A stretch of DNA of 26,052 nt from a virus, in IMG/VR virus record IMGVR_UViG_3300038491_000024, positions 1 through 26,052 of that record; one strand, written 5' to 3'. Numbering within the stretch: the first letter of the stretch is position 1; every line of letters starts with the position of its first letter. The notes beneath the pieces are model-generated. The model was given only the letters and a program-made list of their open reading frames with translations, did no database searches and was not told the origin of the DNA. The translations under genes and the position numbers were made by a program. Below are positions 1-26,052 of the stretch, in pieces.

Positions 1-401
1 ATATATAATAAAGTATAATTTGTTCTCTTTACATCTTTATTTACCTTTTTATCAACTATCTTCTCATTAATATCCTTCTTAATAGATCCCTTTACAACAC
101 TATCAACCTTTTTAGCTACTTTCTTTTCCTTTTTATATGTTGATACCACAATTTCTTTTGCGTTGCTTAAAATCGTCTTATTACCCTTCTTGTCTATTAT
201 TATAAGAGGTTTATTATCAATTGGTATTATTTTAATTGATGTAGATGTTAAGTTTTCAATTAGCAACTCATTAGATGTTGTTTTAACGTCTTTTAAAGCT
301 ACCTCGACAGTTTCCCTGTTCACTTTATTAGTTTCTTTTATTACCTTCTTAGAGGAGGTACAAGAGCTTAATAGTAGTACTAATATAATTATCTGCTTCA
401 T
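1..401 (-). CDS. Lipoprotein, spanin candidate (partial, runs off the window)
   Basis: An open frame of 133 codons starts with ATG at 401 and has no stop before the window edge. The N-terminus is a short lipoprotein signal: Met-Lys, a run of Ile/Leu/Val, then the lipobox LSSC with the Cys at residue 14, so the mature protein would be anchored to a membrane by lipid. The rest is Lys-, Asp- and Val-rich and looks extended or helical; residues near the edge (NYTLLY) may begin a hydrophobic C-terminal segment. It directly follows the M15 endolysin gene. A lipoprotein ending in a transmembrane helix would match a one-protein (u-)spanin that fuses inner and outer membranes, but the C-terminus is not in view. 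The start lies in the last of three 28-bp repeats; earlier copies carry the same ATG but lead to early stops. I am sure of the lipoprotein call, much less of the spanin role. Confidence 0.75.
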   Translation of the reverse strand, partial: MKQIIILVLLLSSCTSSKKVIKETNKVNRETVEVALKDVKTTSNELLIENLTSTSIKIIPIDNKPLIIIDKKGNKTILSNAKEIVVSTYKKEKKVAKKVDSVVKGSIKKDINEKIVDKKVNKDVKRTNYTLLY

Positions 402-483
402 TACGTATATCTTTAATTATCTGCTTCATTACGTATATCTTTAATTATCTGCTTCATTACAAATATCTTTAATTATCTGCTTC
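387..483. repeat. 28-bp tandem repeats, three full copies plus a partial one
   Basis: Copies begin at 387, 415, 443 and 471, exactly 28 bases apart. The copies at 387 and 415 are identical; the one at 443 differs at two bases; the one at 471 keeps 13 bases and lies at the 3' end of the endolysin gene. On the minus strand each full unit holds an ATG followed by AAGCAGATAATT. The ATG at 457 gives a 14-residue peptide, the one at 429 a 26-residue peptide, and the one at 401 opens the lipoprotein. There are no spacers, so it is not a CRISPR array. The likely source is duplication of a 13-base identity shared by the end of the endolysin gene and the start of the lipoprotein gene. Confidence 0.95.
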
Positions 484-856
484 TGTTATCCCATCTGGCG
501 ATGGTTGTTCGAATATCTACGTGAACAAACGTATTGTAAATTCCTATCGCTCCAATTCTTAGCTGTCCACTTGAAATAAGCTCCTCTAAGGTATTTGCAA
601 TCTCTTTTGGTGTTATCCCTTCAATTGCTATATCTGCCGCTTTAGAAAGCGTGTGATGACTGTTAGCAACTCCACCAATAGCTTTGTTGTGGGTTTCACA
701 GCGATAACCGCTATTTATTTTGATTGGTTTACCAAAATAATCTCTAATAATCTGTAATTCCTTAGCGAGCTTTTTTATATTGTCTATATTTCCAATCTCA
801 CAATTTCTGCATCTGCACTCAAATTCTGAAACATTAAAATCCTTTGTTATTTGCAT
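473..856 (-). CDS. Peptidase M15 family endolysin
   Basis: 127 residues, the usual size for single-domain peptidase M15A enzymes (D-Ala-D-Ala carboxypeptidase or endopeptidase type), which cut peptide bonds in peptidoglycan using zinc. The zinc ligands are visible: SHHTLSKAAD at 66-75 fits the SxHxxGxAxD pattern and supplies His68 and Asp75, and HVD at 112-114 supplies His112. The third position from the motif's Gly is Ser here. Gly-Tyr-Arg at 50-52 is the family's usual substrate-side segment. There is no signal peptide, so export to the wall would depend on a holin. The start overlaps the end of the upstream PAS gene by 10 bases, and a lipoprotein follows, giving a compact lysis cassette. 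It probably lyses the host at the end of infection. Confidence 0.9.
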   Translation of the reverse strand: MQITKDFNVSEFECRCRNCEIGNIDNIKKLAKELQIIRDYFGKPIKINSGYRCETHNKAIGGVANSHHTLSKAADIAIEGITPKEIANTLEELISSGQLRIGAIGIYNTFVHVDIRTTIARWDNRSR

Positions 857-1467
857 AGTTCCTCCCTTGTCTTTGCTGTGTTTAATACTATCCCTCCTAC
901 TCCAATAATTTCATTTCTGTAAAATCTCGGAAATTTTAAAACCTCAATAAATAATTTTCCATTTGCTAAATCTATTTCTTCTAAGTATCTACTCGAAATC
1001 CTGTTAGTTACAATTAAATCATCATTTAATCGAAAAGAGTCGGCAACATCCTTTGACCACACGTTGTAATCAGTCTTACCAAGGTAGTCGTGCATATTAT
1101 AACCCCTTGGCTTTAAAAATAAATCCTCATAATAATCATTTATAAACAACACCTTACCCTCTGTATCCTTTAACCAAATTGGCAAAGGAACATCTGTGTG
1201 CGATCCCTCCACCATAAGAATCTGCATTCTCAATCCGTGAATTTCCGCCGCCTGTCTTTGCTTATCTTCTCTTAGCTCTTCAATTATCTTTTCCATAGCA
1301 GCCATACGCTCTAATAAGTCTTTAGCAAAATCCTTGCGATCATCTATAACTAACTTAAAATCTGTACTACTTTGCTTGCTCTTATTAGTTTTGTAGTTTA
1401 TAAGAGTAGCTATCAAGCCACCACCCAAGAGAGTGGCGACTGTCTGAATTATATCACTTACTCCCAT
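847..1467 (-). CDS. Membrane-anchored coiled-coil PAS-domain protein
   Basis: 206 residues in three parts. Residues 4-24 are hydrophobic with a GGG turn and form one membrane helix; residues 44-86 are charged and heptad-like (a coiled coil); residues 92-197 look like a PAS fold, with PLPIWLKDTEGKVLFIN, a central YLGKTDYNVW segment and a closing IIGVGGIVLN strand. PAS domains sense small molecules, redox state or partner proteins. There is no kinase, cyclase or DNA-binding output domain, so signalling would have to go through the membrane segment or through binding. It sits between a holin-like gene (1 base shared) and the endolysin (10 bases shared), which implies a part in lysis or its timing. 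That role is inference. The short TM-plus-coiled-coil front part also resembles small phage membrane proteins of lysis regions. Confidence 0.75.
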   Translation of the reverse strand: MGVSDIIQTVATLLGGGLIATLINYKTNKSKQSSTDFKLVIDDRKDFAKDLLERMAAMEKIIEELREDKQRQAAEIHGLRMQILMVEGSHTDVPLPIWLKDTEGKVLFINDYYEDLFLKPRGYNMHDYLGKTDYNVWSKDVADSFRLNDDLIVTNRISSRYLEEIDLANGKLFIEVLKFPRFYRNEIIGVGGIVLNTAKTREELCK

Positions 1468-1718
1468 TACTGAATAAAGTAAAAAATAACAGGAATAACG
1501 CTAAACACGAAATCTTTAAAATCGACTGTTCCTTGTTTTAATAGTCCATCCCATACAACTTCCTTTGCTGCTGCTACTAATACAGTAATAACAGTACTTT
1601 GTAAATCTGTAAAAAACAGCATTGAAATTGTAAATAGCACACTCCCACCGAAGAAGTGTGCTAATTTATCTTTAGGTATCTTTGTAAAAATATTTATTAA
1701 TTCTTTTAACTTATCCAT
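1467..1718 (-). CDS. Small membrane protein, holin candidate
   Basis: 83 residues with hydrophobic stretches at about 20-36, 40-56 and 70-82, and polar residues in a fixed pattern: KDKLAHFFGG at 16-25, AAAKEVVWD at 49-57 and DFKDF at 66-70. The His, Lys-Glu and Asp residues within or beside the helices resemble the YfiM/DUF2279-like small membrane families. The gene shares one base with both neighbours and sits just before the PAS protein and endolysin, the place where a holin is expected. Holins are too varied to recognise by motif, so the call rests on size, hydrophobicity and position. Confidence 0.55.
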   Translation of the reverse strand: MDKLKELINIFTKIPKDKLAHFFGGSVLFTISMLFFTDLQSTVITVLVAAAKEVVWDGLLKQGTVDFKDFVFSVIPVIFYFIQ

Positions 1719-2950
1719 TATTTTATGCTGCTTATTTCTTCTTCACTCAAAACTTGATTGTAAAATAGAATCTTCTTAATATCCCCGTTGAAAATCTCCT
1801 CTTCTCCTGTCCTAAAACTTCTTAGCCAATTAATATTCATATCTACCTCATCAATAGTACTATTATTTTCCCCAATTTTTATACCGTTCATAAAAAATTT
1901 AAAGGAACCACTTTCATAAGAAAAAGCAAACGTATTAAATTCCCTTAAATTCTCAACCAAAAACAGCCCAATCTCAATTGTGTTAATTCCATCTCTATAT
2001 TGTACCAATATCCTATCTTCTTGATTGGCAAATTGGATTCTTATTCCATCAAACGAATTATTTGTATCTCCTAATCTTATACATCTGTTTTCTGCACCGC
2101 TAATATCGCTTTTTAATCTTGAAGTGAATATTAAAGTACCTCTCAATGTAGTGAATACATCACTTACTAAACCAATTTTTTTAGAACTTTTAACTATCGT
2201 GCTTCCGCTTGTAGGTATATAAGAAGTACCGCCATATCCTAACTCCATTTGCGCACCCCAAAAGTAAAAACCACTAACACCGTCACCTTTATAGACCGTA
2301 TCACCAGCTGCGTTAGCTAAATAAACTCTAACCAATGGTGTGATTCCGATTTGAATATTTCCAATAGCTTCAACCCTTAACCATCCATTAGCATCTCTTT
2401 TAACGTCAAATTGAAGAATCTGGGCTCCAACTACCTCATATTCAAGCGTTTCAAGGTTTAGATTGGTGATATAATCTGCACCGTCACCTAATAATATTAC
2501 TACGTTTGTATGATTATTAGATTTTATATAAAAAGAAGCGGTATATACAGCCGGTGCAACCAATGGATCTGCAACACTATCATTAATTCTATGCTCCTCC
2601 ATCGTTTCGGTAGCTGCAACGTGATAAACTCCTAATTTACCGCTCGGACTCACTACGCCACCATCAAGAGATACCGTTGTAGCTGTTTTTAACCATTCAC
2701 TAACACTTATATTTTCACTATATTTAACAAGATTTTCAGTACCTCTCTCTAACCTTAAAAACGATTCGCCTTTTTCTACATTTATTGCGGGTATATTTGA
2801 TGCCACCTCTTTAACGAAGGCTTCTTTATCTACAACTGTGGATGAACCACCCGCGTAATCAAAATCATTTCCCACGGTTGGCATAATTGAATATAATACC
2901 GACTCCTTGTAGCCGCTCGGTATCATCGCGATTGTTGGTTTAGTTTTCAT
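1718..2950 (-). CDS. Virion fibre-like protein with LamG-like C-terminal domain
   Basis: 410 residues. The N-terminus (VLYSIMPTVGNDFDYAGGSS) matches a pattern I know from Bacteroidetes phage structural proteins, in which an anchoring segment is followed by carbohydrate-binding-like beta sandwiches. Residues 80-255 look like a CBM-type domain (YTASFYIKSNN, then FYFWGAQMELG and SYIPTSGSTIV), and residues 265-410 look like a LamG/concanavalin-type sandwich (GTLIFTSRL, FKFFMNGIKIG, IKKILFYNQVLSEEEI). Such proteins usually decorate the particle and may bind surface sugars of the host. It follows the connector gene and precedes the lysis genes, so it is expressed late. It could be a capsid fibre or a tail fibre; the neighbouring head genes slightly favour the head. 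Confidence 0.65.
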   Translation of the reverse strand: MKTKPTIAMIPSGYKESVLYSIMPTVGNDFDYAGGSSTVVDKEAFVKEVASNIPAINVEKGESFLRLERGTENLVKYSENISVSEWLKTATTVSLDGGVVSPSGKLGVYHVAATETMEEHRINDSVADPLVAPAVYTASFYIKSNNHTNVVILLGDGADYITNLNLETLEYEVVGAQILQFDVKRDANGWLRVEAIGNIQIGITPLVRVYLANAAGDTVYKGDGVSGFYFWGAQMELGYGGTSYIPTSGSTIVKSSKKIGLVSDVFTTLRGTLIFTSRLKSDISGAENRCIRLGDTNNSFDGIRIQFANQEDRILVQYRDGINTIEIGLFLVENLREFNTFAFSYESGSFKFFMNGIKIGENNSTIDEVDMNINWLRSFRTGEEEIFNGDIKKILFYNQVLSEEEISSIK

Positions 2951-3038
2951 CTTTCTTTTGTTTACTTAAAAATATTTGTAATTTCTTTACATTAATCTGT
3001 TTAGGCTTGTAATATTTATTCTTCTTTATAATTGCCAT
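2940..3038 (-). CDS. Possible 32-residue basic micro-protein
   Basis: A short frame that starts 13 bases inside the end of the connector gene and ends 11 bases inside the start of the fibre gene, filling what would otherwise be a 75-base gap. The product is very basic (12 Lys of 32; it opens MAIIKKNKYYKPKQ) with no hydrophobic segment. The overlaps at both ends are like those of its neighbours and suggest translational coupling. I know no function. It may be a chance frame in AT-rich DNA. Confidence 0.45.
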   Translation of the reverse strand: MAIIKKNKYYKPKQINVKKLQIFLSKQKKDEN

Positions 3039-3526
3039 CCTCCAAAATTGTTTTCTTCCCTATCGGGTTTGATATCCTCGTTAATGTTAGTTAAATATTC
3101 GGGAAAATCCCTATTATTATAACACAAATAATCAACAAGTAAGTTGCTGTAATGCTGTGCAATAGTACGCTCCTTTTCAATTAAGAAATCTACCTCCTTT
3201 TTATCAACACTTTCACTTGTTTCAGATTGATGCTTATATACACCACCATTAGCAACCGTATAAGCTAAGAATGGTAAGCTGTGAACTGCCGCCCAATGTA
3301 TTAGAGCAGGTTTAATATATTCCTCTACCAATTCTTTGTAAGGCGTGGTTAAAGTGTTATCAATTATATCGTTTAATATTCTCTTGTACAATCTTGTACC
3401 TAACAAGCTTTGTATTTCAATATCTTGAGCCACATTTGCCCATTGGATTAATTTATCATCATCAACACTACCGTCATAGATAGTATGTGATTTTAAATCC
3501 TTCATCGTAATCATTATAGCTTTCAT
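3026..3526 (-). CDS. Head-tail connector / head completion protein
   Basis: 166 residues, mostly helical, of a type common in Bacteroidetes phages directly after the portal gene. Recognisable stretches are DDKLIQWANVAQDIEIQSLLG (given here only as the pattern of an opening helix), EEYIKPALIHWAAV, GGVYKHQSE and EVDFLIEKERTIAQHY. Proteins of this size and position form the adaptor ring that joins the portal to the tail, like gp6 of HK97. The gene starts 2 bases after the portal stop. The assignment rests on remembered sequence patterns and gene order. Confidence 0.6.
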   Translation of the reverse strand: MKAIMITMKDLKSHTIYDGSVDDDKLIQWANVAQDIEIQSLLGTRLYKRILNDIIDNTLTTPYKELVEEYIKPALIHWAAVHSLPFLAYTVANGGVYKHQSETSESVDKKEVDFLIEKERTIAQHYSNLLVDYLCYNNRDFPEYLTNINEDIKPDREENNFGGWQL

Positions 3527-3527
3527 A

Positions 3528-5327
3528 TTATCTCTTATTTACATAACCTTTATTTGGCATATCGTTAGGCGTCATACTTACTTCTTTTTCATTAACGGGG
3601 TTAAATCCTTGTTTTCTTGCTTTTCCTGTTGAAATCTTAGGAGCTAATGGACTTTTAACATCAATACCTGTTTCACTTCTAAAAGTAACCCTTCTCCACT
3701 TATGCTTACATTGAGCACCTCCTTTGTATAACCAAATAGAATAAGTATCTGCACCTCCTTTGCCTAAACCTTTGTTTACTGCCTTATTGCCCATTGCAAT
3801 TATATCTTCTTTGCGATACAGTTTATTAGCATTCATCATTTTCTTACAAAAGGATCTCTCAGGCGTTGGATTGCCTACGTACCTGTATCTAACTTTATAA
3901 TTAACACCTCTAACTTCCTTATCTTGACTTGATTTAGCATTTGGAACTGCTCTACCTGTTGAAACGAAGTTAATAACCCTATCCAGCATTGATAACTTAA
4001 CATCATTATCTAAAGACTTTAAAAATGCATTCTCATCAGCTTCAATCTGTGATACAATCTCATCGTATTCATCTTCAAGCTCATAGTCAACATCATTTTC
4101 ACTTACTAATTCCCAACCTTCCAAATCGTCGTCACACTTACTAATTAATTCATCAGTTAAATCATCTTCAATTGATTCTTTATACATTTTAATACCTGTT
4201 TCCTCTTCTTTATCTTCATTATCAAGTACAACATCAACATTAGTAAATTCAAGCGGATCTAACGTTTTAAAATAAAGGTTTAAGCTAATCCCATTAACTG
4301 CCAATATATCTTCAATAGCATCAGTTAATTCTTCTTGAAACGATTTAATAGTTATGTTTGAAAACATCAATTGAGCTGTTTTAATCTCATCAGCATTATT
4401 TCCTAAACCGCCATTACCTGTTTCAATACCAATTAATTTACCACTTATTACTCTGTGACCTATTTTAAGTTTATTTTGGCACTCCTCAGATAAGTATTGA
4501 TAGTGGGCGGCTGCATCTGTTAAAGGGATATCGTCAACAGTTGTTTTACTTTCCGCTGAATTATTAAAACTTACTATAACTTTTTGTCCTCTTGAACCTG
4601 TTAAATTAGATACAATACCATTCTTTATAGACTCCCTTTTGCTTTTATCATTAGGAATACCATCGTTAAAATTAACAACCTTAGTCCCGCTAAAGTGATT
4701 TAAAGCATCGTTGATGAGATAATCAGCAATTTCTTCTTCTAAAACTGCATAAGGTAGTGATCCAACATAATCAACAGGGCTAAAATAATCATAACCCGCA
4801 ACGTAATCTCTAACAATATAAACCTCGTTCCCTTTGGTTGATGTTCCAAAAACGGGTATTTCTGTTTTTTTGTCGCTTGGCTTTGCTTCTGCCCAATTAG
4901 GATGGTACAACCAAGATTGCACAACGCCTTTATCATCTGCAAGTGTTGGTCTAAGCGTTTGCATTGGTATATGAGTTATTTTAGCAACCTTATTACCCTT
5001 GTAAGATACTTGTAAAGCAGCCATGCCCATTATTTTCCTATCCGCAACAACTCTTTTCAAGTCTTTTTTGGATAGTATTGATTTTAAAGCTGCATATTGC
5101 ATTGGTTTTTTAGTACTATCAGTTGCATCAAGTCCTTTACCATAGATTTGTTTTACAATACCATTAATAATAGCGTTGTTAGTTGTTGAGCCTACATATC
5201 TATCAATTAAATACTTAAAATAGTTGTTATCCGCTCCATATTCTACAAAATTCTTATTCTTTACCTCTGTAATTGTAGGTGATGTATATTGCGACAACTC
5301 AATTATGAAATTGTTTCTGTCTTCCAT
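3528..5327 (-). CDS. Portal protein with C-terminal extension domain
   Basis: 599 residues. The first 390 or so read as a portal: an N-terminal clip-and-wing region (IVKQIYGKGLDA, MGMAALQVSYKGNK, HIPMQTLRP), then a long helical part with GHRVISGKLIGIETG and the NADEIKTAQ segment typical of Bacteroidetes phage portals. A very acidic linker follows at about 390-440. From about 460 a separate basic domain begins, with RYRYVGNPTPERSFC, ADTYSIWLYKGGAQCKHKW and a tail rich in Lys/Arg. That tail domain is common on portals of this phage group and may be a degenerate head-morphogenesis domain; I cannot assign an activity. The portal is the ring through which DNA enters and leaves. It lies far downstream of the terminase and after the major capsid gene, which is unusual. 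Confidence 0.8.
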   Translation of the reverse strand: MEDRNNFIIELSQYTSPTITEVKNKNFVEYGADNNYFKYLIDRYVGSTTNNAIINGIVKQIYGKGLDATDSTKKPMQYAALKSILSKKDLKRVVADRKIMGMAALQVSYKGNKVAKITHIPMQTLRPTLADDKGVVQSWLYHPNWAEAKPSDKKTEIPVFGTSTKGNEVYIVRDYVAGYDYFSPVDYVGSLPYAVLEEEIADYLINDALNHFSGTKVVNFNDGIPNDKSKRESIKNGIVSNLTGSRGQKVIVSFNNSAESKTTVDDIPLTDAAAHYQYLSEECQNKLKIGHRVISGKLIGIETGNGGLGNNADEIKTAQLMFSNITIKSFQEELTDAIEDILAVNGISLNLYFKTLDPLEFTNVDVVLDNEDKEEETGIKMYKESIEDDLTDELISKCDDDLEGWELVSENDVDYELEDEYDEIVSQIEADENAFLKSLDNDVKLSMLDRVINFVSTGRAVPNAKSSQDKEVRGVNYKVRYRYVGNPTPERSFCKKMMNANKLYRKEDIIAMGNKAVNKGLGKGGADTYSIWLYKGGAQCKHKWRRVTFRSETGIDVKSPLAPKISTGKARKQGFNPVNEKEVSMTPNDMPNKGYVNKR

Positions 5328-5328
5328 A

Positions 5329-5658
5329 TTATTTAATTATTACGTATTCGTTGTTTGTAGGGTTTTCCTTATAACTACCCTTATTTATAGTGTACTTTGA
5401 TTGATTAGTACAAAAAATTCTATCATATACCACCAATTCCTGCTTAGTGTTATCTGTGTAACCTTTTAAAGTATAAAATCTATCTTCAATTAAATCTAAT
5501 ACAACATCAATGCTAACATAATATCCTTGATTGGTAGTATTAACCACTTTACTGATTAATGTATCGTTTTTATCTCCCTCAATTTCAATATAACCCAACC
5601 CTCCATTAGGCACCAAGCTAATTGTTTGAAGCAATCCAGTTTGCTTTAAAATTATCAT
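5329..5658 (-). CDS. Conserved phage protein of unknown function (109 aa)
   Basis: A 109-residue beta-rich protein (LLQTISLVPNGGLGYIEIEG, RFYTLKGY, VVYDRIFCTNQSKYTI). I recognise the layout from Bacteroidetes phages, where it sits next to the portal gene, but no function is known to me. It ends one base before the portal start and is the first gene after the terminator at 5677-5709. Its leader carries the GTTTATA motif 18 bases before the ATG. An upstream ATG at 5662-5664 is out of frame and meets a stop at once, so the start at 5658 is preferred. Confidence 0.6.
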   Translation of the reverse strand: MIILKQTGLLQTISLVPNGGLGYIEIEGDKNDTLISKVVNTTNQGYYVSIDVVLDLIEDRFYTLKGYTDNTKQELVVYDRIFCTNQSKYTINKGSYKENPTNNEYVIIK

Positions 5659-5676
5659 CTCATTTATTATATAAAC
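5659..5676 (-). promoter_or_regulatory. GTTTATA leader motif before the 109-aa gene
   Basis: GTTTATATAATAAATGAG occupies the 18 bases just before the ATG at 5658. It starts one base after the T run of the upstream terminator. The same layout precedes the starts at 9898, 12162 and 17019. It could be a late promoter element or a translation-start signal. Confidence 0.5.
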
Positions 5677-5709
5677 AAAAAAAAGGCAACTACGTTAATA
5701 GCTGCCCTT
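5677..5709 (-). terminator. Rho-independent terminator after the tail-tube pair
   Basis: On the minus strand a 10-bp stem (AAGGGCAGCT with AGTTGCCTTT, two G-U pairs) closes a loop of 8 bases and runs into eight T. The G-U pairs form only in RNA of the minus strand, so it works in the direction of the tail-tube genes, whose last stop lies 19 bases upstream. Confidence 0.85.
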
Positions 5710-5727
5710 TATTAAATTAAATTAAAA

Positions 5728-6264
5728 TTATGGTTCAATACTTGATGCTTGTACATCAAAATCTTGTCCCGCTCCAATAGCACTTGATGCAATATATTGA
5801 GCAGAAAATTCCTCTACTCCTGTTGCCACTAAATTATAACCATTCATAGCTCCGAGCGTATCTCCTGTTGCTGTTGAAATAGCCACATCCATACCATCAA
5901 CTGCGCCTAATAACCTAAAATTATCATTGTTATCTCTAACGATAATCTGTGCATTAGATTTTGCTAATGATTCAAATAAAGCTCTGCTTTCTTTATCTTG
6001 CTTATATAGAGGTGCTGTAAAAGTTTGTGTATAAAAACTTGTATTGTTTTCCCTGCTCACCTCTGCAGCTTCCTCAAGAGTAACCGCTCCTCTTACTTGT
6101 ATTTTCCAAACATCTTGCGATGCCGATAGTGCAGTTATTTCGTTACCTGTAATCGTTGCTAAGTCTAAAAGCCCTTCTACATATTGCATAATGTAAAACT
6201 CTTTAACCCCTCCCCAATTTGACTTACAAGCCATTTTCCTACCGTTTCCTATCAAACAACTCAT
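5728..6264 (-). CDS. Tail tube protein paralogue 2
   Basis: 178 residues and clearly a paralogue of the gene just upstream: both begin MSCLI, then GR, a Cys-Lys pair and GG-x-K, and both share a central FYTQTFTAPLYKQDKESR / FWTGTLNVTLHKQDAASQ block and a following RDNNDNFRLLG / EDYNGNFRLIG block. This is the pattern of tail tube (major tail) proteins in Bacteroidetes siphoviruses, which polymerise around the tape measure. The start codon overlaps the stop of paralogue 1 as TAATG. One of the pair could be the main tube subunit and the other a terminal or decorating variant; sequence alone does not say which. Confidence 0.7.
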   Translation of the reverse strand: MSCLIGNGRKMACKSNWGGVKEFYIMQYVEGLLDLATITGNEITALSASQDVWKIQVRGAVTLEEAAEVSRENNTSFYTQTFTAPLYKQDKESRALFESLAKSNAQIIVRDNNDNFRLLGAVDGMDVAISTATGDTLGAMNGYNLVATGVEEFSAQYIASSAIGAGQDFDVQASSIEP

Positions 6265-6797: not shown

Positions 6798-6815
6798 ATT
6801 TTTATTTTTTAGGTT

Positions 6816-6849
6816 AAAAAAAAGGGAGCGCACCTAAGCGCAACTCCCT
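6816..6849 (-). terminator. Rho-independent terminator after the major capsid gene
   Basis: On the minus strand AGGGAG pairs with CTCCCT; the stem can be lengthened by CGC with GCG if three bases bulge on the 5' side. A run of eight T follows. It lies 15 bases after the capsid gene stop and would reduce read-through into the tail-tube genes. Confidence 0.8.
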
Positions 6850-6864
6850 CCAATTTAGTTATTA

Positions 6865-17058: not shown

Positions 17059-18234
17059 TTAATAGTAAACAGCATACTTCCCTTTATTTGGATTCTCTAA
17101 TACACTTACTAAGGCATATCTTGCAGCATCAATACAATCATTATATTTGTCAATAGGTTTGTTTAGCTTTGTTCCATCTTTTGCTGTAGCCCAAGTGTAC
17201 TTATTTAGTTCAGCTATCAAGTTTAAACTACTTGAAGTTACCCTAATCTTGTTTTGATTAATTAGATTAATTCCATACACAATACTGTCCTTCCCTTTTT
17301 TCACACCTGTTACGCTATGCCCTAATGATTTTAATTCGGCAATACTTTTTGGTTCTGCACTATCACAATAAATCAAGTCTTTAATACCTAAGCTATCAAT
17401 CTCTTGTGATATCTGCTTGTTAAGTATTCCTTTTTTGTAAAGCATTTCGTCAAAAATATACTCATCATTATATTTGTATAATCCAATAATAGTAGTAAAA
17501 TCATTAGCAAACCCCCAATCCAAACCTATTGAAATCAATCTTGCTTCATCTGGTAATTCATTAATAGGTGTCCAATCAGGGATGCATACACCTTCAAGTG
17601 AACCTATCTGCCCGAGTCCGTACACTTTCCACCAATTTGCCCAATATGTAGATCTCTTCGCTTTATCCCTTGCTGATTCAATATCCGCAACAATTGTGTC
17701 AGGTAACGCTTCGTTATCAACGTAAGTCAATGTTAAGAACTCGCTATCTTCCTCCTCGAGCACCTCTGTATGGGCCCAAAATTCAGCAGTCGGGTTAAAA
17801 TCAATCCATATCTCGCCACTTGTTCTAATAGCTAATTGATTGTAAGATTCAAACGCTATATTGTTTGCTTCATTTATATATAAGATGTTACGTCTGGCAC
17901 CTCTTAACTTATCTGGTTGGTCAACACTAAAGAACTCTATAAAACTGCCATTTGAAAAGGTATATTTCATTGTGGATTTATTATACTGCACATCTCTAAA
18001 CCTTTTCGTCATTATCATTATTTTAATGAAGTCTTTTAATGCTCCCCTCCTAAGATGGGGTACGCTTTCGGATACTACACTAATTTCAAGAAGTGGTGTT
18101 TTTATAGCCTTATCAATAAGGATAGGCAATATACCAAACGTTTTACCCGCTGATGTTCCACCTTGAACAACTTTTTTTCTTGCAGTTAATCTGTATAATT
18201 TTCTTATTGCCGATGTTACTAAAAAACTACTCAT
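17059..18234 (-). CDS. terL: Terminase large subunit
   Basis: 391 residues with both enzyme parts of a terminase. ATPase: Walker A GGTSAGKT at 25-32 and Walker B ILYINE at 117-122, followed by the Ala-Asn coupling segment. Nuclease (RNase H-like): Asp239 in LDWGF, Asp291 in CDSAEP and Asp366/Asp370 in YNDCIDAARY. It cuts concatemeric DNA and drives it through the portal. At 391 residues it is on the short side, as in phages with compact terminases. The start overlaps the small subunit gene by 8 bases. Confidence 0.95.
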   Translation of the reverse strand: MSSFLVTSAIRKLYRLTARKKVVQGGTSAGKTFGILPILIDKAIKTPLLEISVVSESVPHLRRGALKDFIKIMIMTKRFRDVQYNKSTMKYTFSNGSFIEFFSVDQPDKLRGARRNILYINEANNIAFESYNQLAIRTSGEIWIDFNPTAEFWAHTEVLEEEDSEFLTLTYVDNEALPDTIVADIESARDKAKRSTYWANWWKVYGLGQIGSLEGVCIPDWTPINELPDEARLISIGLDWGFANDFTTIIGLYKYNDEYIFDEMLYKKGILNKQISQEIDSLGIKDLIYCDSAEPKSIAELKSLGHSVTGVKKGKDSIVYGINLINQNKIRVTSSSLNLIAELNKYTWATAKDGTKLNKPIDKYNDCIDAARYALVSVLENPNKGKYAVYY

Positions 18235-18583: not shown

Positions 18584-18609
18584 AAACAAACAATATAAAA
18601 CAAAAAAAA

Positions 18610-18852: not shown

Positions 18853-19456
18853 ATTTAGTTGTTAACAATTCAACTGATTCTTTTATTAATTCGTGGGTAT
18901 CTTTATCATAGTACAAATAGTAAGGAGTAACTCCTGTTTTTTGCTTATACTTTTCGTGCTTCTTTGCGTTCGATACCTTAGATTGCTGCAAACCTACGTT
19001 ATATGGATTTTTAGATAGGTACGTGTGCGGTTTGATTTGTATCGCTGTACAATTATTATACAAGTCCACTGAAAAACTAACGTCTGTATCTTCATCTGTA
19101 TAATCTAAATGCAAATCATATTTTTTAGCTAACATTTTTTTTATACTATCTTCCGCTAATGCACCAAAAAAAGTATCTAATACAATTCTCTTGTACATAT
19201 ACTTCCTTACATCTTCAATATCAACTCCGAAATCTTTAACAATTCCCTCTAATATTTTATATAACTTAGCTTCTCCAAGACGATTGTAGATATATACACC
19301 GAACTCCTCATAATTTGGGTTTATAGCACTTTTAAAGTACTCTTTTACGTGGATTGATACTCGACCCACACTTCTAACTGATAAGCGCCTTCCAGCTGCT
19401 CTATTTATCAAATTAAACTTGTGTTTACTTAGTTGGTGAATTGGTTTGATATCCAT
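18836..19456 (-). CDS. MjaI-family restriction endonuclease-like protein
   Basis: 206 residues. The N-terminus (HQLSKHKFNLINRAAGRRLS), the EEFGVYIYNRLGEAKLYKIL segment and VLDTFFGALAEDSIKK match the layout of MjaI-like endonucleases that are frequent in flavobacterial phages. The likely catalytic core is a variant PD-(D/E)XK site: Asp131 in SVDLYNN and Gln140-Ile-Lys142 in AIQIKPHTYL. MjaI itself cuts CTAG. No methyltransferase gene adjoins it; the only methyltransferase in the window is 5.7 kb away. I found no CTAG in this window, so self-protection may be by site loss. The gene shares one base with the upstream 150-residue gene. Target and activity of this homologue are unproven. Confidence 0.7.
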   Translation of the reverse strand: MDIKPIHQLSKHKFNLINRAAGRRLSVRSVGRVSIHVKEYFKSAINPNYEEFGVYIYNRLGEAKLYKILEGIVKDFGVDIEDVRKYMYKRIVLDTFFGALAEDSIKKMLAKKYDLHLDYTDEDTDVSFSVDLYNNCTAIQIKPHTYLSKNPYNVGLQQSKVSNAKKHEKYKQKTGVTPYYLYYDKDTHELIKESVELLTTKYGKSV

Positions 19457-19908
19457 TAATAGTTTTTATATAGTTTAGTTAAGTCACCTATAACACTTTT
19501 AAAACAAGTTGAACAAGATGTTAATTGTTTATTTCTGTTGAAAACTCTATTGTATATAGCTAACATTTCTTTTTGCTGATTTGATGTAACTCTTGAAGTG
19601 TTTGAGTTAAAGTAATCATGCAAGTAAAGATACTCATCATGCGTTATACATTCTGCTACTTTCTTCTTAAATAGATTATTCAACTTATCTTTACGCTCAT
19701 CACATCCACAGTCAATATCTAATGCTTCCGATATAACCTCAACAGCTTTCTTTATTCCTGTTGCTTTAGTAATACCCTCCACAACATCTCCTAAGCTTTT
19801 TTTAGAGCTTTTAAGAGCTTTTAAACTTTCTTTAAGGTGTTTGTACTCCTTACTCCTTTTATCGCCCTTAAAGTCTCTTATTTGGCTTTCTAAATCTTTA
19901 ATAGTCAT
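19456..19908 (-). CDS. Conserved phage protein with CxC and CxxC motifs
   Basis: 150 residues: a basic coiled-coil front (LESQIRDFKGDKRSKEYKHL, then KESLKALKSSKKSL), a central KATGIKKAVEVISEALDIDCGCD with Cys67 and Cys69, and a C-terminal helical part with Cys132 and Cys135 (SCSTCFKSVI). The GIKKAV…DCGCDERKDKLN block is common in Bacteroidetes phages, always without a known role. Four cysteines in two pairs could bind zinc. It overlaps the end of the sigma factor gene by 11 bases and shares one base with the MjaI-like gene, so all three should be made together. Confidence 0.6.
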   Translation of the reverse strand: MTIKDLESQIRDFKGDKRSKEYKHLKESLKALKSSKKSLGDVVEGITKATGIKKAVEVISEALDIDCGCDERKDKLNNLFKKKVAECITHDEYLYLHDYFNSNTSRVTSNQQKEMLAIYNRVFNRNKQLTSCSTCFKSVIGDLTKLYKNY

Positions 19909-20422
19909 TTGTTATATTTTTATTAAACCAATCCTTTAACTCTTCTTTTATAATTGCCTTAACTTTAGATACAGTTCCGTGTAGTGATACGTGGCTTATA
20001 TCGATCTGTTTAGCCATCGTACGAAAACTCAAACCGCTATCTCTGTAAAGTCTAAACACTTCCGCATCATACCACTCAAGCCCATCCAAGACTTCCTCAA
20101 TTTTTAAATGCAAATTATGTTGCTTATTGAGAAAAACTATACTATCTAAGTCTTGTTCAATTTCTGTTTCAGTTTCCGTATATCTGTTAAACTTAGATTC
20201 TTTGTTATAGTAATTAGCTACTTCACTTCGGATAGTAAGATACACATACCCATAGTTGATTTTATTGTTGACTATTATCTTATCAAAAGTAGCATACTTG
20301 TGTAGCTTTATATATGTATTTTGTATAATATCATCCGCATTGCTTAAAGTAGCACCTAAACTTAATGCGTGAGCAATCCACATTTTATTCTCTTTTGCTA
20401 AGATAGTTAAGAAGTCACTCAT
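19898..20422 (-). CDS. Phage RNA polymerase sigma factor (sigma-70/ECF type)
   Basis: 174 residues with the two domains of short sigma factors. Region 2 at about 10-75 includes ADDIIQNTYIKLHKY, which matches the D-x-x-Q-x-x-F/Y core-binding helix, and a following YVYLTIRSEVANYY promoter-melting helix. Region 4 at about 105-165 ends in a helix-turn-helix, LSFRTMAKQIDISHVSLHGT. The acidic linker is at 80-95. Such a protein would steer host RNA polymerase to phage promoters, probably those of late genes. It is the first gene after the 244-base non-coding interval. A related option is that it is only a DNA-binding regulator, but region 2 makes sigma more likely. Confidence 0.75.
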   Translation of the reverse strand: MSDFLTILAKENKMWIAHALSLGATLSNADDIIQNTYIKLHKYATFDKIIVNNKINYGYVYLTIRSEVANYYNKESKFNRYTETETEIEQDLDSIVFLNKQHNLHLKIEEVLDGLEWYDAEVFRLYRDSGLSFRTMAKQIDISHVSLHGTVSKVKAIIKEELKDWFNKNITNDY

Positions 20423-20666
20423 TCGGTTAATCTGTTTAGATGATGCAATATACTATTTATTTTATAACAAGTAAAGATTTATTTGTTTTTTTTTATTAAA
20501 AATATTCTATAATTTTCATCACTTAAAGAAATAACAAGTAGCCCTCTTATATATATATATGAAGCACCCCCTCTACAAGTACCGCCATTCCTAAGAAAAG
20601 AGGTTACAAAAACATGCCCAAAAAAAATTTGGGAAGAAATATGTAACCTTTTCAGTATACATATAC
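20423..20666. other. 244-base non-coding interval with nested inverted repeats
   Basis: No convincing gene. It holds an inverted repeat AGGTTAC (20601-20607) and GTAACCT (20643-20649) that can be lengthened outward if two bases bulge, with a second repeat CCCAAA (20617-20622) and TTTGGG (20628-20633) nested inside. A (TA)n tract lies near 20549-20561 and a C-rich patch near 20565-20587. On the minus strand at about 20443-20471, TTG, 15 bases and TATATTGCATCA resemble the promoter at 24971-25000 but with shorter spacing. It could be a regulatory region for the sigma gene, a structured RNA, a terminator of the helicase gene or an origin; nothing decides between these. Confidence 0.5.
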
Positions 20667-22952
20667 TTAACTTTCTTGACTCCATTTATGTAAGTCATTA
20701 CTTAGACCTGCTTGCACCTCTAAAGACGCTCCTTCAATCTTAAACCAACCCTTTTTCCCTAAAAAGTCTAAATGATTTAAGTGAACTAAATTTGTACCGC
20801 TGTTAAATATTAAAATACTATCGTGCCTTCGGACAACCCCCTCATGCTCCCAAGAATCGTAAGCTTCCAACTTTAACTTAGAGATTAACTGTTTTTCATA
20901 AAAAGTCAAGAAGTTAAACAGGTTACCTCGATAATCTGATTCAAAAAAGTTATTAATCAAATAATCAACAACAACCTCGTTAAAACCAAAGAATAAAAAC
21001 CTATCTCTTGCCCTTGCTTTTTGAATCTTCTTAGGCGTTGCTTTCTTTTCATTATAAAAAAAGTTATTCAAAAACTTATTAATCTTTAACTTATTAACTT
21101 TATTGACTCCATAAATATCAGCAGGCAAATCAAAACCACATAAAGAGTATATGATCCTAATAAATGCTGCTTCAATATCCACCTCCGTAACACTTACGCT
21201 AAAATGTTCCGCAACCAATTTAAGCTCGTCAACTCCGATTTGCGTAAGTAAGTTGTAATTCCTATTGACTACCCAATTAGGAGGTGCAACAATATCCTCA
21301 TTTACAAACATCTGTATCAAGTTGTACAGAACCTTTATTGATTTAACTTTAAAAACCTCCCTATAAGGCTTTGAATCAATCTTTCCATACTTAGCGATAC
21401 TTCTTTCATTATATGCCTTTACAAGTCCTTTAAGTAGTTTATTAAACTTCTTTTCATCCGTCAGTAAATCCATACCCTCACGCTCCCTTAAAGTTAAACT
21501 TCTTTGTCCGTTGTAGTTTTTCCTTCTTAGGTACGTGTTAAAGTCCCTTAAATAGTATTCATCTTTAGTTTTCTCTTCAACTCTTAAAGTGTAATCCTTG
21601 CCGAACAGGTCCAACCTACTAATTAAAATCTCATTTTTCAATAACATAGACTCTTTAAATTCGTCCTGTAATTTACTTACGGGAAGCAATGATTGTTGCT
21701 CGTTCAAATCCTTAATAGTTAATTTTCGACTCTCTAAGAAACTTTTAAACTTTTCTGATGGAAATGGTTTGTCATACTCCAATTGTTCCTTATATAAGCT
21801 TATTGCAACTTCATTTCGTTTAACAGAGAAACTTCCGTAATCATCCGAACCCTCTCTTGTGTTTTGTGTAAAAATAACAAAAGGATGCAACTTGTAAAAC
21901 TTTCCCTCCGTACCTTTAGATTGTTTCTGATGTATGCTGTAATCATCTCTTTTAATAAATCTATCAACTTCTTTATCTATATCTTTAAATGAGTGTCTAA
22001 TATTTACCAAGTCAGCTCTACAATATTCAATGTAAGTTGCTCCTTTTCTTGTTCTACTGATCGCTTGATATAAGTTAGAAATGTAAAACGTTTCATAACC
22101 GCCTGGAGATGCCCTATCTTCAAAAAAATATAGTGATGCATCTGTGTAATTAATATCATAACCTTCAAACGCTCTTGAGGATATTATTGTAAGCTTAGAC
22201 TCGGGATTATGTTTAACCTCCATAAGTTCTACCAAACTGCTCATCAACCCGTTACCCACTATAAAATTTGCTTCTAATACGTGGGATTTGTTTTTTAGCT
22301 TATAAATTACCGTTTTGTTGTTAGTAGCGACCACTACACTCCTACCTTCTTGAATATCCTTTTTAATGCGATTTAAGGCACAAAATCTGTTTTTAGCTAA
22401 ATGTATTGTTTGTCTTGGTAAAAGTTCGTTAGTGATGTTAATATCTACTTTAGAATATAGGTTAGGGCTTGCGGTAACACTTACTATTGAAGCTTTACCA
22501 TAAAAAATAGATTCTAACTTGGAATAGAAATCGATTAATCTGTATCTGAACAGGGACTGAATTTCAGTCGAATGGCATTCATCATGCAGTACTTTATCAA
22601 CTTTATGAGATATATTTTTTACGGCATCCTTTCTCAGTAGAAAACTATCAGCAACAAACATAAGGATATCAGCATCACTAAAATCAGAATCTTGGGACTC
22701 CTTGTAGAAAAACTTGATACGATTATCTGTACCAAGTTCCCCTTTATTGTAAGCTTCTTGTTTATCCATCACAACCGCCTTATTAGGTGCAATCATAACA
22801 TTAACCATTCCAATTTTTACGGGAAGCGTAAGGAACCCATAAGAGAAACCGTTCCCTGTTTGCTGCTTGTTTACCCTGTTATGTTTGGACGCTGCAAAGC
22901 ATTTTTGAATCAACTCCTGTGATAAGTATTTTTGTTTGTTTGTTAGATTCAT
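20667..22952 (-). CDS. SF2 helicase-like replication protein lacking the Walker A lysine
   Basis: 761 residues. The first 310 or so follow a superfamily 2 helicase: a Walker A position at 32-39 (TGNGFSYG), motif Ia-like VMIAPNKAV, DECH at 124-127 (motif II), TAS at 160-162 (motif III), VVVATNNKT at about 207 (IV), KLTIISSRAFEGYDI at 253-267 (V) and QAISRTRKG at 296-304 (VI). The Walker A lysine is absent (GNGFSY, not GxGKT/S). I recall similar Lys-less variants in other Bacteroidetes phage helicase-like proteins. Residues 320-761 are helical and basic, and I do not recognise them. It probably acts in replication or recombination together with the nearby YqaJ nuclease. Whether it hydrolyses ATP is uncertain. 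Confidence 0.65.
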   Translation of the reverse strand: MNLTNKQKYLSQELIQKCFAASKHNRVNKQQTGNGFSYGFLTLPVKIGMVNVMIAPNKAVVMDKQEAYNKGELGTDNRIKFFYKESQDSDFSDADILMFVADSFLLRKDAVKNISHKVDKVLHDECHSTEIQSLFRYRLIDFYSKLESIFYGKASIVSVTASPNLYSKVDINITNELLPRQTIHLAKNRFCALNRIKKDIQEGRSVVVATNNKTVIYKLKNKSHVLEANFIVGNGLMSSLVELMEVKHNPESKLTIISSRAFEGYDINYTDASLYFFEDRASPGGYETFYISNLYQAISRTRKGATYIEYCRADLVNIRHSFKDIDKEVDRFIKRDDYSIHQKQSKGTEGKFYKLHPFVIFTQNTREGSDDYGSFSVKRNEVAISLYKEQLEYDKPFPSEKFKSFLESRKLTIKDLNEQQSLLPVSKLQDEFKESMLLKNEILISRLDLFGKDYTLRVEEKTKDEYYLRDFNTYLRRKNYNGQRSLTLREREGMDLLTDEKKFNKLLKGLVKAYNERSIAKYGKIDSKPYREVFKVKSIKVLYNLIQMFVNEDIVAPPNWVVNRNYNLLTQIGVDELKLVAEHFSVSVTEVDIEAAFIRIIYSLCGFDLPADIYGVNKVNKLKINKFLNNFFYNEKKATPKKIQKARARDRFLFFGFNEVVVDYLINNFFESDYRGNLFNFLTFYEKQLISKLKLEAYDSWEHEGVVRRHDSILIFNSGTNLVHLNHLDFLGKKGWFKIEGASLEVQAGLSNDLHKWSQES

Positions 22953-22967
22953 TTACTTATAATTGTT

Positions 22968-23252
22968 TTACAAAGGTTTAACACAACCCGCACAGTAACC
23001 ACTTACTCCATTCTCACTAACTTTCATCTGCGGGTGTGGTATCTTACATTTACATTTAACTTTGTCTTGCTCCAATTCCCTTATTGCTCTTTTTAAGTAA
23101 AGTGCCTTATCTAAGGTTTCTTCGTATGCGTGTTGTAACCAACCTTTTAGATCTATATCTGTTCTGTCAAGAGTAGTGTTGTACTTTTCAATACCTACTT
23201 CGCTTCTTAGTCTTAAATCCGTTCGAACCTCTGCTACTATTGTATCTTTCAA
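22968..23252 (-). CDS. Small protein with helical part and zinc-ribbon-like end
   Basis: 94 residues. Residues 14-62 (SEVGIEKYNTTLDRTDIDLK, then GWLQHAYEETLDKALYLKRA) resemble a helical domain found in many phage proteins with the pattern KYGTTLDRTD…WL.HA.EE..D..LYL. The end holds CKC at 67-69 and CAGC at 87-90, enough for one zinc ion. The start overlaps the stop of the YqaJ gene as ATGA, so it belongs to the recombination operon. The function is unknown; it may be a MazG-like or DNA-binding accessory. Confidence 0.6.
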   Translation of the reverse strand: MKDTIVAEVRTDLRLRSEVGIEKYNTTLDRTDIDLKGWLQHAYEETLDKALYLKRAIRELEQDKVKCKCKIPHPQMKVSENGVSGYCAGCVKPL

Positions 23253-23872
23253 AATTGTGCGTTTTTTTTAATTTGTTCAATAAATTCCTTTTTTATCTCA
23301 GAAGCTTCTGCAACTCTCTTCTCAATCAAAGCAATCATCTTCTCATCTCTTGGTACTTCAATTATATGATGCAATTCTTCACCTCTCTCTAAGTGGTAGT
23401 TAACAAAGTAGCTCTTCTCTGTTTTAGTTGCCAACATCTGCATTTGCATTTGAGCGTAATATTTCGGATCAATAGCGGGTAAACCCTCCGCTACTATCTT
23501 AAAAAACTTAGTACGCCTTGGGCATTTAATCTCTAAGTTAGAGTTATCAGAAACCAAACCATCTGGTGAAGCTCCCGCATCCTCTCCAAACGTATGGAAT
23601 CCTGTTTCAATAGTTTCTAAGAAGTCTGCTTCTTTTAACTCTTTAAATAGATTAAAAGCTAAAGGTTCAAGTGTAACACCCCTCTCTATGTCAGCACTTT
23701 TTAACTCAATATCCTCCCTCCCATACAAAGTTTCAACAGCTTTCTCAAACGCAAAAGAATTAATACTTTGCTTAGTTCGAGCCAAACCACCTTTTCCGAG
23801 TAGTCTATGAATCTCAGAAGCTGTAAACCTCCCTTCTCTAATTTTAAACCACTCTTTACTTCTCTGCTCCAT
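23249..23872 (-). CDS. YqaJ-like viral recombinase / exonuclease
   Basis: 207 residues with the lambda-exonuclease/YqaJ fold. The N-terminus has the family's KEWFKIREGRFTASEIHRLL. The PD-(D/E)XK site is Asp104 (ASPDGL), Glu114 and Lys116 (LEIKCP), with Glu69 upstream and YYAQMQMQML at 138-147 as the usual Q-rich helix. It degrades one strand of double-stranded DNA ends to give single strands for annealing. The partner is likely the 163-residue gene upstream, which overlaps it by 17 bases and may be the single-strand-binding or annealing protein. Confidence 0.9.
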   Translation of the reverse strand: MEQRSKEWFKIREGRFTASEIHRLLGKGGLARTKQSINSFAFEKAVETLYGREDIELKSADIERGVTLEPLAFNLFKELKEADFLETIETGFHTFGEDAGASPDGLVSDNSNLEIKCPRRTKFFKIVAEGLPAIDPKYYAQMQMQMLATKTEKSYFVNYHLERGEELHHIIEVPRDEKMIALIEKRVAEASEIKKEFIEQIKKNAQF

Positions 23873-24347
23873 AATCTAAATATTTTTTCTCAATAGCTTT
23901 AGTGATTGAATAAGCTTTTTTAATTTGCTCAATTGTCGCTTTAGCAGCTTTAGCCTTCTCAAACTGCGCTTCTGTAAAACTTGGTTTAACCTTTTCTTTA
24001 GGTTGTAAAGGACTAATACGAACACCACCAACAACAGCTCCTTTCATTCTTACATTCCTGTCAATTGTAAGATCAACTCTTGTGTCATTCCAATCCTCAA
24101 CAAAAGAACTACCCTTATTGAATCTGCTTACAGTTTTCGAATTAGTAGAATTCAGTACTAACGGTTTAATATTTTCGTAAAAGTAAGCAATATTATAATC
24201 CCCTTTGCGACCTGCCACAACCGCACCTATTTCCTGCTTTACTTCTCTAATGGTAAAACTTAAAGATTTCCCTTCTTCTAAAAATTCTTCTAAATCTGCT
24301 ACTCCTAAATGATCGCTTTTAAATACTTTTCTATAATGTGTTTTCAT
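23856..24347 (-). CDS. Conserved protein paired with the YqaJ nuclease
   Basis: 163 residues. Recognisable from Bacteroidetes phages by KVFKSDHLGVADLEEFLEEG, the YNIAYFYENIKPLVLNSTNS segment, and VVGGVRISPLQP. In those genomes it nearly always lies next to a YqaJ-type nuclease or a recombination protein, as it does here. It could be a recombination accessory or single-strand-binding protein, but I see no domain that proves it. The C-terminal 45 residues are a Lys/Ala-rich helix (EKAKAAKATIEQIKKAYSI). Confidence 0.65.
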   Translation of the reverse strand: MKTHYRKVFKSDHLGVADLEEFLEEGKSLSFTIREVKQEIGAVVAGRKGDYNIAYFYENIKPLVLNSTNSKTVSRFNKGSSFVEDWNDTRVDLTIDRNVRMKGAVVGGVRISPLQPKEKVKPSFTEAQFEKAKAAKATIEQIKKAYSITKAIEKKYLDYGAEK

Positions 24348-24369
24348 AATTTATTAGTTTATAATTTTA

Positions 24370-24513
24370 TTAGTTTATTATTGTTACATCTGTGATTCCT
24401 TTGCTAACTACCATTAAGTTAGTTCCGTTGTACTTTTTTATTTTATAGCCTTGATTAAATAATTCTTTTAATAACTGCGTTTGCTTAATTGTAAAGTTTT
24501 CTGGTAATATCAT
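24370..24513 (-). CDS. 47-residue protein of unknown function
   Basis: Frame from ATG at 24513 to TAA at 24370. It begins MILPENFTIKQTQLLKELFN and continues with a basic segment and a beta-like end, NLMVVSKGITDVTII. The ATG has an A-rich leader (AAAACTAAACAAA) like the neighbours'. It fills the gap between two early genes on the same strand. No known family. Confidence 0.6.
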   Translation of the reverse strand: MILPENFTIKQTQLLKELFNQGYKIKKYNGTNLMVVSKGITDVTIIN

Positions 24514-24524
24514 TTTGTTTAGTT

Positions 24525-24704
24525 TTATATGTTATAAATTTCTTTTCCTACTTCTAAACCTCTGCAAAAAGAGTTGGTTTTTAAATTACAGATAAGACTG
24601 TTTAGTTTGTTAAATAAATCCCCATCTTTAATTTGTAGTAATAATTTAGATTCCTCTAAACCTAACACTTCATTTTGCTTGTTTAATAATTCCAATTCCG
24701 TCAT
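24525..24704 (-). CDS. 59-residue protein of unknown function
   Basis: Frame from ATG at 24704 to TAA at 24525. It is a helical, mildly acidic protein (MTELELLNKQNEVLGLEESK at the start) with two Cys near the end. Its leader, AAAACAAAAATATT before ATG, is identical over 17 bases to that of the 68-residue gene. It lies 11 bases before the next gene. Function is unknown. Confidence 0.6.
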   Translation of the reverse strand: MTELELLNKQNEVLGLEESKLLLQIKDGDLFNKLNSLICNLKTNSFCRGLEVGKEIYNI

Positions 24705-24732
24705 AATATTTTTGTTTTTAGTTTTTGCTATT

Positions 24733-24939
24733 TTAAGTTAGTGCTATAATTTGGGCGTTTACAAATTGGCTATAAGTGTATTTTCGGTAGTTAAATAACT
24801 CTTTGTTGTTAAAGTAACTCATATAGCTTTTTTCACATTCTTTACACCAATTTGTAAAAGTCATATTAGCATAAGCACCTCTGGTATGTGCGAAAAGTGC
24901 TTTTAAATCGTCTTGGTCAATTCTTAAATCTGCTTTCAT
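24733..24939 (-). CDS. 68-residue first gene of the early operon
   Basis: 68 residues from ATG at 24939. It has an acidic front (LRIDQDDLKALFAHTRGAYA), two Cys (CKEC at 32-35) and an aromatic-rich end (SYMSYFNNKELFNYRKYTYS). It lies directly downstream of a strong host-type promoter and so should be expressed early. Early phage genes in this position often encode host takeover or defence-evasion factors, but nothing in the sequence identifies this one. Confidence 0.6.
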   Translation of the reverse strand: MKADLRIDQDDLKALFAHTRGAYANMTFTNWCKECEKSYMSYFNNKELFNYRKYTYSQFVNAQIIALT

Positions 24940-24970
24940 AATATTTTTGTTTTAATTGTTATTCCTGATG

Positions 24971-25000
24971 CAAATATACAAAGCTTTTTGACTTAAACAA
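24971..25000 (-). promoter_or_regulatory. Bacteroidetes-type promoter of the early operon
   Basis: On the minus strand TTG (25000-24998) is followed after 19 bases by TATATTTG (24978-24971), a full match to the TAnnTTTG -7 element with the -33 TTG of Bacteroidetes housekeeping promoters. The ATG at 24939 lies 31 bases downstream. It would be read by host sigma factor at the start of infection. Confidence 0.85.
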
Positions 25001-25006
25001 GAAAAA

Positions 25007-25024
25007 AGTAAATAAATGTTTACT
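25007..25024. promoter_or_regulatory. Palindrome upstream of the early promoter
   Basis: AGTAAA (25007-25012) and TTTACT (25019-25024) form a perfect inverted repeat with six bases between, 6 bases upstream of the -33 element. It could bind a regulator that acts on the early promoter. In AT-rich DNA a chance match is possible. Confidence 0.35.
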
Positions 25025-25100
25025 ATTTAACAAATATCTACTCTTTGTAAGTAGTTATATTCAATGTTTTTTTAGTTCAATTTATTGAATGGAGGATATA

Positions 25101-25138
25101 AGTAGTTACCCACAATATTTTTAAAAAGGGCAACCACT
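25101..25138 (-). terminator. Hairpin after the methyltransferase gene
   Basis: On the minus strand AGTGGTTGCCC pairs with GGGTAACTACT over 11 bp including two G-U pairs, with a 16-base A/T loop. The G-U pairs exist only in minus-strand RNA. It lies 10 bases after the methyltransferase stop but lacks a long T run, so it may be a weak terminator or another RNA structure. Confidence 0.5.
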
Positions 25139-25147
25139 CTTACGTTC

Positions 25148-26044
25148 TTACTCTTGCGGTTTTTTGAATACTAATATGTTTTGATGCACTTTGACTAATT
25201 TTTGAGTTTTCATATTTCCATTTGCTCTCATTGCAGCACTACCCATTCCATTTAATAAAATTGCTTCATTATAAAAATCCATTCCACACTTTTTAAAAGC
25301 GTTAATTGTATCAGGTACAAAACCAATGTAGTTTCCTTTTTTATCTCTAACCTCACCAACCACAAAACAAGCATAACCACCACTTTTTAATAAATCACAA
25401 CTTTTCTTTATAATGCTTTCATAAGATTTTAAAAAGTTTTCGTAATCCATATTAGATATATCACCATCTAAATCACTATAAACTTCTAAGTGAGCATAAG
25501 GTGGGCAACTAAAAACCATATCAAATTCTTTTTTAGAGTTTGTTAGAAGAATATCACTATCACCAACCCACCATTTAGGTTGATTATTTGGCTCTAATAT
25601 ACTAACTGCTTGTTCTATATTGCTTCTTATTTGTTCTTGTCTTATATCTATTCCACTATACTTATAACCTAAATAATTAGCAACAATACCTCTAACTGAA
25701 CCTCCTGCAAATGGGTCTAAAATATCTCCGTTATCTGGACAAAACCATTTATATAAAACCTCGCAAAGTGCAGGGTCAAATATAGAAATATAAGGTGTTT
25801 TAGATATATCTTTTTTTTCAGTTTTATTATTAGGGTTTCCTCCTTTTATTCTTATTGTAGATACTTTTCTACCAATTTCACTTAATATACCTAACTTATC
25901 CCATCGCTTCCTTCTTGCTTTCCAAAAAGCGGTCTTTGTATCTAAAATACTAAATGGAGGTTCTATAAATTTATCTCTTAATATAATTCTTTCTTTTGGT
26001 TTTTTAACCTCTTGTTTTTCTTCACTAAACAAATCTTTTTGCAT
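25148..26044 (-). CDS. Phage DNA methyltransferase (N4-cytosine or N6-adenine)
   Basis: 298 residues. AdoMet-binding motif I is DPFAGGSVRG at 110-119, followed by GIDIRQEQ (motif II), and the catalytic motif IV is SCPPY at 179-183. The block FSCPPYAHLEVYSDLDGDIS, then NMDYENFLKSYE and ACFVVGEVRDKKG, and the ending KVHQNILVFKKP are typical of a phage methylase family seen in many tailed phages, which protects phage DNA against restriction. The order I before IV matters for class; SPPY-type motifs occur in amino-methyltransferases for both C and A. No cognate nuclease adjoins it; the MjaI-like gene is 5.7 kb away. The target is not predictable from sequence. Confidence 0.85.
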   Translation of the reverse strand: MQKDLFSEEKQEVKKPKERIILRDKFIEPPFSILDTKTAFWKARRKRWDKLGILSEIGRKVSTIRIKGGNPNNKTEKKDISKTPYISIFDPALCEVLYKWFCPDNGDILDPFAGGSVRGIVANYLGYKYSGIDIRQEQIRSNIEQAVSILEPNNQPKWWVGDSDILLTNSKKEFDMVFSCPPYAHLEVYSDLDGDISNMDYENFLKSYESIIKKSCDLLKSGGYACFVVGEVRDKKGNYIGFVPDTINAFKKCGMDFYNEAILLNGMGSAAMRANGNMKTQKLVKVHQNILVFKKPQE

Positions 26045-26052
26045 AATTAATT

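Follow-up and report, generated by a model that had tools for sequence, protein, structure and literature searches.

How can a phage carry a restriction endonuclease of the MjaI family and escape being cut by it? Restriction enzymes are thought to require a protecting methylase, and MjaI, the founder of the family from Methanocaldococcus jannaschii, cuts CTAG. This is the very word that the original prediction had reported as absent from the stretch analysed here, a whole virus record of 26,052 bases that is classed as linear and possibly a fragment (hereafter the window). The window, which may thus not be a complete genome, holds no methylase adjoining its MjaI-like nuclease gene and none of the cognate type (Table 1). 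We consider it highly probable that the gene product is a solitary MjaI-type endonuclease, predicted to cut CTAG, which was made safe by purging CTAG from the phage genome.

Table 1 Features of the window discussed in the text
Feature	Coordinates	Strand	Evidence
Large terminase	17059..18234	-	PF17288 and PF04466
MjaI-family (PD-(D/E)XK) type II restriction endonuclease, predicted, 206 aa	18836..19456	-	Pfam RE_MjaI
Uncharacterised gene; stop codon overlaps nuclease start by one base	19456..19908	-	ORF list
Sigma-factor-like gene, upstream of nuclease	19898..20422	-	phrog_1740 9.7e-9
N6_N4-type DNA methyltransferase, motif CPPY	25148..26044	-	PF01555 55.6 bits; phrog_12517 3e-90

The absence of CTAG was confirmed by count (0 in positions 1..26052), while 55.2 sites are expected from trinucleotides by a Markov estimate and 73.1 under independent bases, close to the ~75 originally supposed. 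The composition assumed for that figure, about 16% each for C and G, does not hold, as the window is strand-asymmetric (C 5404, G 3187). When the codons of 32 predicted genes of the window, together 24,102 coding bases, were shuffled 500 times, the result was 44.3 ± 5.3 CTAG with a minimum of 29 (z = -8.3), where ~50 had been guessed for a codon-aware null. A sibling contig of 32,180 bases is likewise free of CTAG, and in window and sibling together it is the sole tetramer with a zero count. Among the words named for comparison, AGCT (113/117, observed/expected) and GTAC (70/68) do recur at normal frequency, as do TGCA and ACGT. GATC was counted by eye at about 19 and is present exactly 19 times, but it is depleted against 71 expected (z = -5.6 within genes). 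Since CATG (11/42, z -4.8) and CCGG (1/17, z -3.3) are depleted too, the window phage partly shuns several palindromes.

The assignment of the nuclease to the MjaI family was borne out by a match to RE_MjaI (PF09568; 49 bits, E = 7.7e-13, cut-off 22.7) and by a separate profile based on 30 cellular RE_MjaI genes, which found the window nuclease at E 2.3e-14 and also detected the gene of contig L041 (2.8e-9), missed by Pfam. Residues T95, G98, E102, D125, D131, Q140, K142 and P143 are invariant among the phage and cellular members (15 aligned), in agreement with a PD-(D/E)XK enzyme of the D...QxK type. It shares with MjaI the family, D131, Q140-x-K142 and the T-x-x-G-x-x-x-E motif, and the founder's site is the word missing from the phage. 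The protein forms a divergent branch with ~20-25% identity to the cellular members aligned. Its predicted model (pLDDT 76.9) has a confidently modelled C-terminal core; Foldseek with this model gave no significant fold match, nor did a sequence search of solved structures give a significant match, and a direct search of phage and plasmid records for the window nuclease matched nothing. A dN/dS of 0.08 between the window and its sibling L081, and of 0.04-0.09 within the L041 lineage, indicates that the gene is under purifying selection. Between window and L081 (10001-10621), synonymous divergence of the nuclease is 0.60, compared to 0.02-0.07 for the closest flanking genes (those for an 80-aa product, the uncharacterised and sigma-like proteins and the large terminase), so that the allele was apparently swapped by recombination. 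The uncharacterised gene overlapping the nuclease start matched no Pfam family above cut-off, and the sigma-like family (F6) also occurs near the nuclease in a second lineage (L116, L119, L122).

For the comparison with other phages, relatives were collected from viral contigs by means of the large terminase, which was also used to build the tree and which is 51% identical in the window to terminases of Flavobacterium phages; further carriers came from a search with the L041 nuclease protein. All 16 contigs with an unpaired nuclease (the window, G050, G446-G459) have zero CTAG against a pooled expectation of ~773 (119 in the window lineage and 654 in the L041 lineage), and no other tetramer has a zero count in either lineage. 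The original prediction had proposed relatives without the MjaI-like gene as a check, and in most of these 30-100% of the expected CTAG sites are retained. When only contigs of 8 kb or longer are considered, zero CTAG was found in 10/10 carriers versus 8/51 non-carriers (Fisher 5e-7, the contigs not being independent), the other 43 non-carriers keeping mostly 0.3-1.08 of expectation. On the terminase tree the carriers stand in three places, which takes three changes, of which two or more are forced. Tree neighbours without the gene keep CTAG (L001 52/87, L002 29/27, L069 32/58), and the kin of both the window lineage and the L041/L116 pair are CTAG-bearing non-carriers. With ~5 changes per column on its branch, the L117-L123 group is doubtfully placed, and its position was given no weight.

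Counting against a strict association, zero CTAG was also observed where no nuclease was detected, namely in L003, L071, L055, L080 and the group L050, L056, L058 and L060, whose terminases are identical. The fragments L055, L080 and L071 do not extend to the usual nuclease position, whereas the contigs of the L050 group do, but are empty there. Site loss alone is therefore no proof of the gene. A MazG-domain protein was the weak candidate for an MjaI-like gene in the L050 group and was rejected. In L070, a phage in which CTAG is kept, a possible match fell below cut-off (7.2e-5) and was rejected as well, the short ORF having a PD-(D/E)XK-like sequence of another kind.

An independent test was provided by cyanophages, as a search with cellular RE_MjaI sequences led to a gene in a 190.8 kb contig that represents Synechococcus phage S-SM2. 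This complete genome carries the nuclease as gene SSM2_066 without a methylase of the N6_N4, D12 or C5 families and has 0 CTAG versus 291 expected. No other tetramer is missing from it, the rest being at normal or moderately lowered levels, down to 0.37 of expectation. In S-CAM3, S-H9-2 and S-RIM32 the homologous nuclease gene overlaps a DNA methylase, and CTAG is at 76/424, 61/450 and 32/428, respectively (0.07-0.18). Seven cyanophages without the gene are at 0.87-1.09 of expectation (378/425, 369/404, 658/625, 232/241, 258/236, 166/190, 193/220). The CTAG counts cover complete genomes or stretches of at least 100 kb; for four of the gene-free phages they are limited to the initial 100 kb, and for one to 200 of its 205 kb. 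CTAG loss in cyanophages is thus graded by the presence of a methylase, between phages with the nuclease only and those with nuclease and methylase. Other viral contigs with gene and methylase vary widely (G465 50/59, G466 18/32, G461 16/56, G460 1/19, G467 0/13). Counting against the pattern, 2 CTAG (11 expected) occur in L133, an S-SM2-like fragment in which the gene is present and an N6_N4 methylase is not; both sites lie in a stretch that is missing from S-SM2 and encodes a PF05869 Dam-type methylase. Sf-CH1b (L229-L238), with normal CTAG (658/625), has ACGT at 39/345 and CCGG at 0/127.

The link between gene and CTAG in the window's group, together with the same pattern in the unrelated cyanophages, supports self-immunity by site loss, and the carrier/non-carrier and cyanophage contrasts speak for the earlier suggestion that the phage is immune because it has lost the site, with no need of a methylase. 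We propose that the gene encodes a solitary MjaI-type endonuclease which would cut double-stranded DNA at CTAG, and that a CTAG-purged genome would release the phage from the need for a partner methylase. During infection the enzyme would cut any CTAG-bearing DNA in the cell, be it host chromosome, plasmids or a rival phage, and selection against self-cleavage would then keep CTAG out of the phage genome. The site loss in carriers points to CTAG as the cut site of the window enzyme, which we presume to be expressed during infection. The benefit would most likely be the breakdown of host DNA, and possibly the exclusion of competitors. In small samples of Bacteroidota genomes CTAG was at 0.63 of expectation without RE_MjaI and at 0.27 with RE_MjaI, so that target sites exist in such hosts.

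An alternative that we regard as unlikely is that CTAG restriction-modification systems of the hosts drove the loss of CTAG, the nuclease being a passenger or a later capture that is tolerated by a CTAG-free genome. RE_MjaI is indeed common in Bacteroidota (62/395 genomes) and nearly always accompanied by a methylase, several relatives are CTAG-free with no nuclease detected, and the phages shun further palindromes. However, zero CTAG in 16 of 16 carriers and not in most non-carriers of the same group speaks against pressure from the host, and in cyanophages the loss follows the gene. Host WH8102 is common to S-H9-2 (61/450), Sf-CH1b and Sf-FS3 (232/241), of which only S-H9-2 has nuclease and methylase while the phages without the gene are near expectation; host pressure alone does not explain that difference. 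The intermediate CTAG level of cyanophages with both gene and methylase argues in the same direction. The original prediction had allowed that the host could be the cause; as the only cause this is disfavoured by the same-host cyanophages, but in the window's group the host is a possible helper. Host avoidance may have come first and enabled capture of the nuclease, and the data give no order of events.

Less probable still, and in our judgement very improbable, is an ordinary phage restriction-modification pair in which the window methyltransferase protects CTAG and acts with the nuclease. It is N6_N4-type, the same class as the cognate methylases, but it lies 5.7 kb from the nuclease, and its closest homologues (438 bits) occur in L066 and L040, which have no nuclease and keep CTAG at 47/64 and 52/71. 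These homologues suggest that it is probably not the partner. The cellular MjaI members examined, unlike the window gene, nearly always have an adjacent methylase: the cognate type (TSPPY motif) adjoins nearly all of the 30 cellular loci, where it constitutes one related family, and is also found in the phages that have nuclease and methylase. The window methylase matches these cognate enzymes at just 18-29 bits, and the carriers reach at most 27-29 bits with the cognate type (L081, G449). In S-SM2, G447, G451 and G453, no match to the N6_N4, D12 or C5 methylase families was found. In the sibling L081, four consecutive genes (1620-4757) encode different DNA methyltransferases, and with zero sites there is nothing that needs protection. 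As the window record is possibly a fragment, a partner methylase might lie off the contig; the window methylase itself was dropped as partner, because it follows neither the nuclease nor CTAG. Removal of CTAG by chance, mutation bias or codon usage can practically be dismissed, for although CTAG is scarce in many bacteria and expectations vary with the null, codon-preserving shuffles never fell below 29 sites, carriers have lost every site and neighbours of like composition show no such loss, and S-SM2 lacks all 291.

PacI, an enzyme of bacterial origin, has an 8-base site and a nuclease fold other than the MjaI type. In Pseudomonas alcaligenes it is a solitary restriction enzyme, and the host genome is without its sites (PMC3488263). 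The window nuclease, as we read it, resembles PacI as a methylase-free enzyme that is tolerated since its bearer's genome has no site, and CTAG is lacking from the complete S-SM2 as well as from the window, its 32 kb sibling and another 14 contigs. It differs from PacI in that the bearer is a virus and the site has 4 bases and would otherwise be expected dozens to hundreds of times. S-CAM3, S-H9-2 and S-RIM32 share with the window a phage-borne RE_MjaI gene and a strong depletion of CTAG, but they keep the accompanying methylase and 32-76 CTAG, while S-SM2 and the window's group have neither. In the known avoidance of recognition sites by phages the selecting enzyme belongs to the host (PMC6286503); the window likewise has lost a restriction site, but here the loss follows the phage's own enzyme. 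In the open-access literature we found PacI as a precedent, as well as site avoidance driven by the host, and no account of nuclease and site loss occurring together in phages. Phages appear to dispense with the methylase by emptying their genome of the site, over 190 kb in one cyanophage. Some of the words that phage genomes lack could be explained in this testable way, and phage nuclease specificity could be predicted from genome composition; cultured phages allow testing by comparing S-SM2 with S-H9-2, S-CAM3, S-RIM32 and relatives without the gene.

In carriers of the L041 lineage (L041, L116-L128; full contigs G446-G459) CCAG/CTGG occurs once versus ~581 expected, so that CTAG and CCAG/CTGG are both missing, equal to the word CYAG/CTRG; in the window lineage CCAG is at ~0.3 of expectation. 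This gap counts against a plain CTAG reading: either the enzyme is broader or another force acts. The same double gap exists in L055, L071 and the L050 group (L050, L056, L058, L060; full contig G035, L185, L186), where CTAG is 0/70 and CCAG 1/84 and no MjaI-like nuclease was detected, and nearly so in L080 and L075. The L050 group, and G001 (L167, L168) with CCAG/CTGG at 3/94 though CTAG is kept (52/87), call for caution in assigning a broader specificity to the L041 enzyme. Only tentatively do we suggest that phages have repeatedly resorted to unguarded enzymes, immunising themselves against these by deleting the site, with several independent gains (window lineage, L041 lineage, S-SM2), and that the missing word tells the specificity, the L041-type enzyme cutting CYAG/CTRG. 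If true, other missing words in the group would point to more nucleases.

Several further loci were observed. L085 (4575-5360) encodes an MjaI-like nuclease in a Bacteroidetes MAG, at a locus without a methylase gene. L130 (6190-7578) has two adjoining genes of the RE_MjaI type that belong to different branches; the opposite strand encodes one methylase. In G014 (L175, L176) a non-palindromic tetramer, CCTG/CAGG, is nearly absent (4/68).
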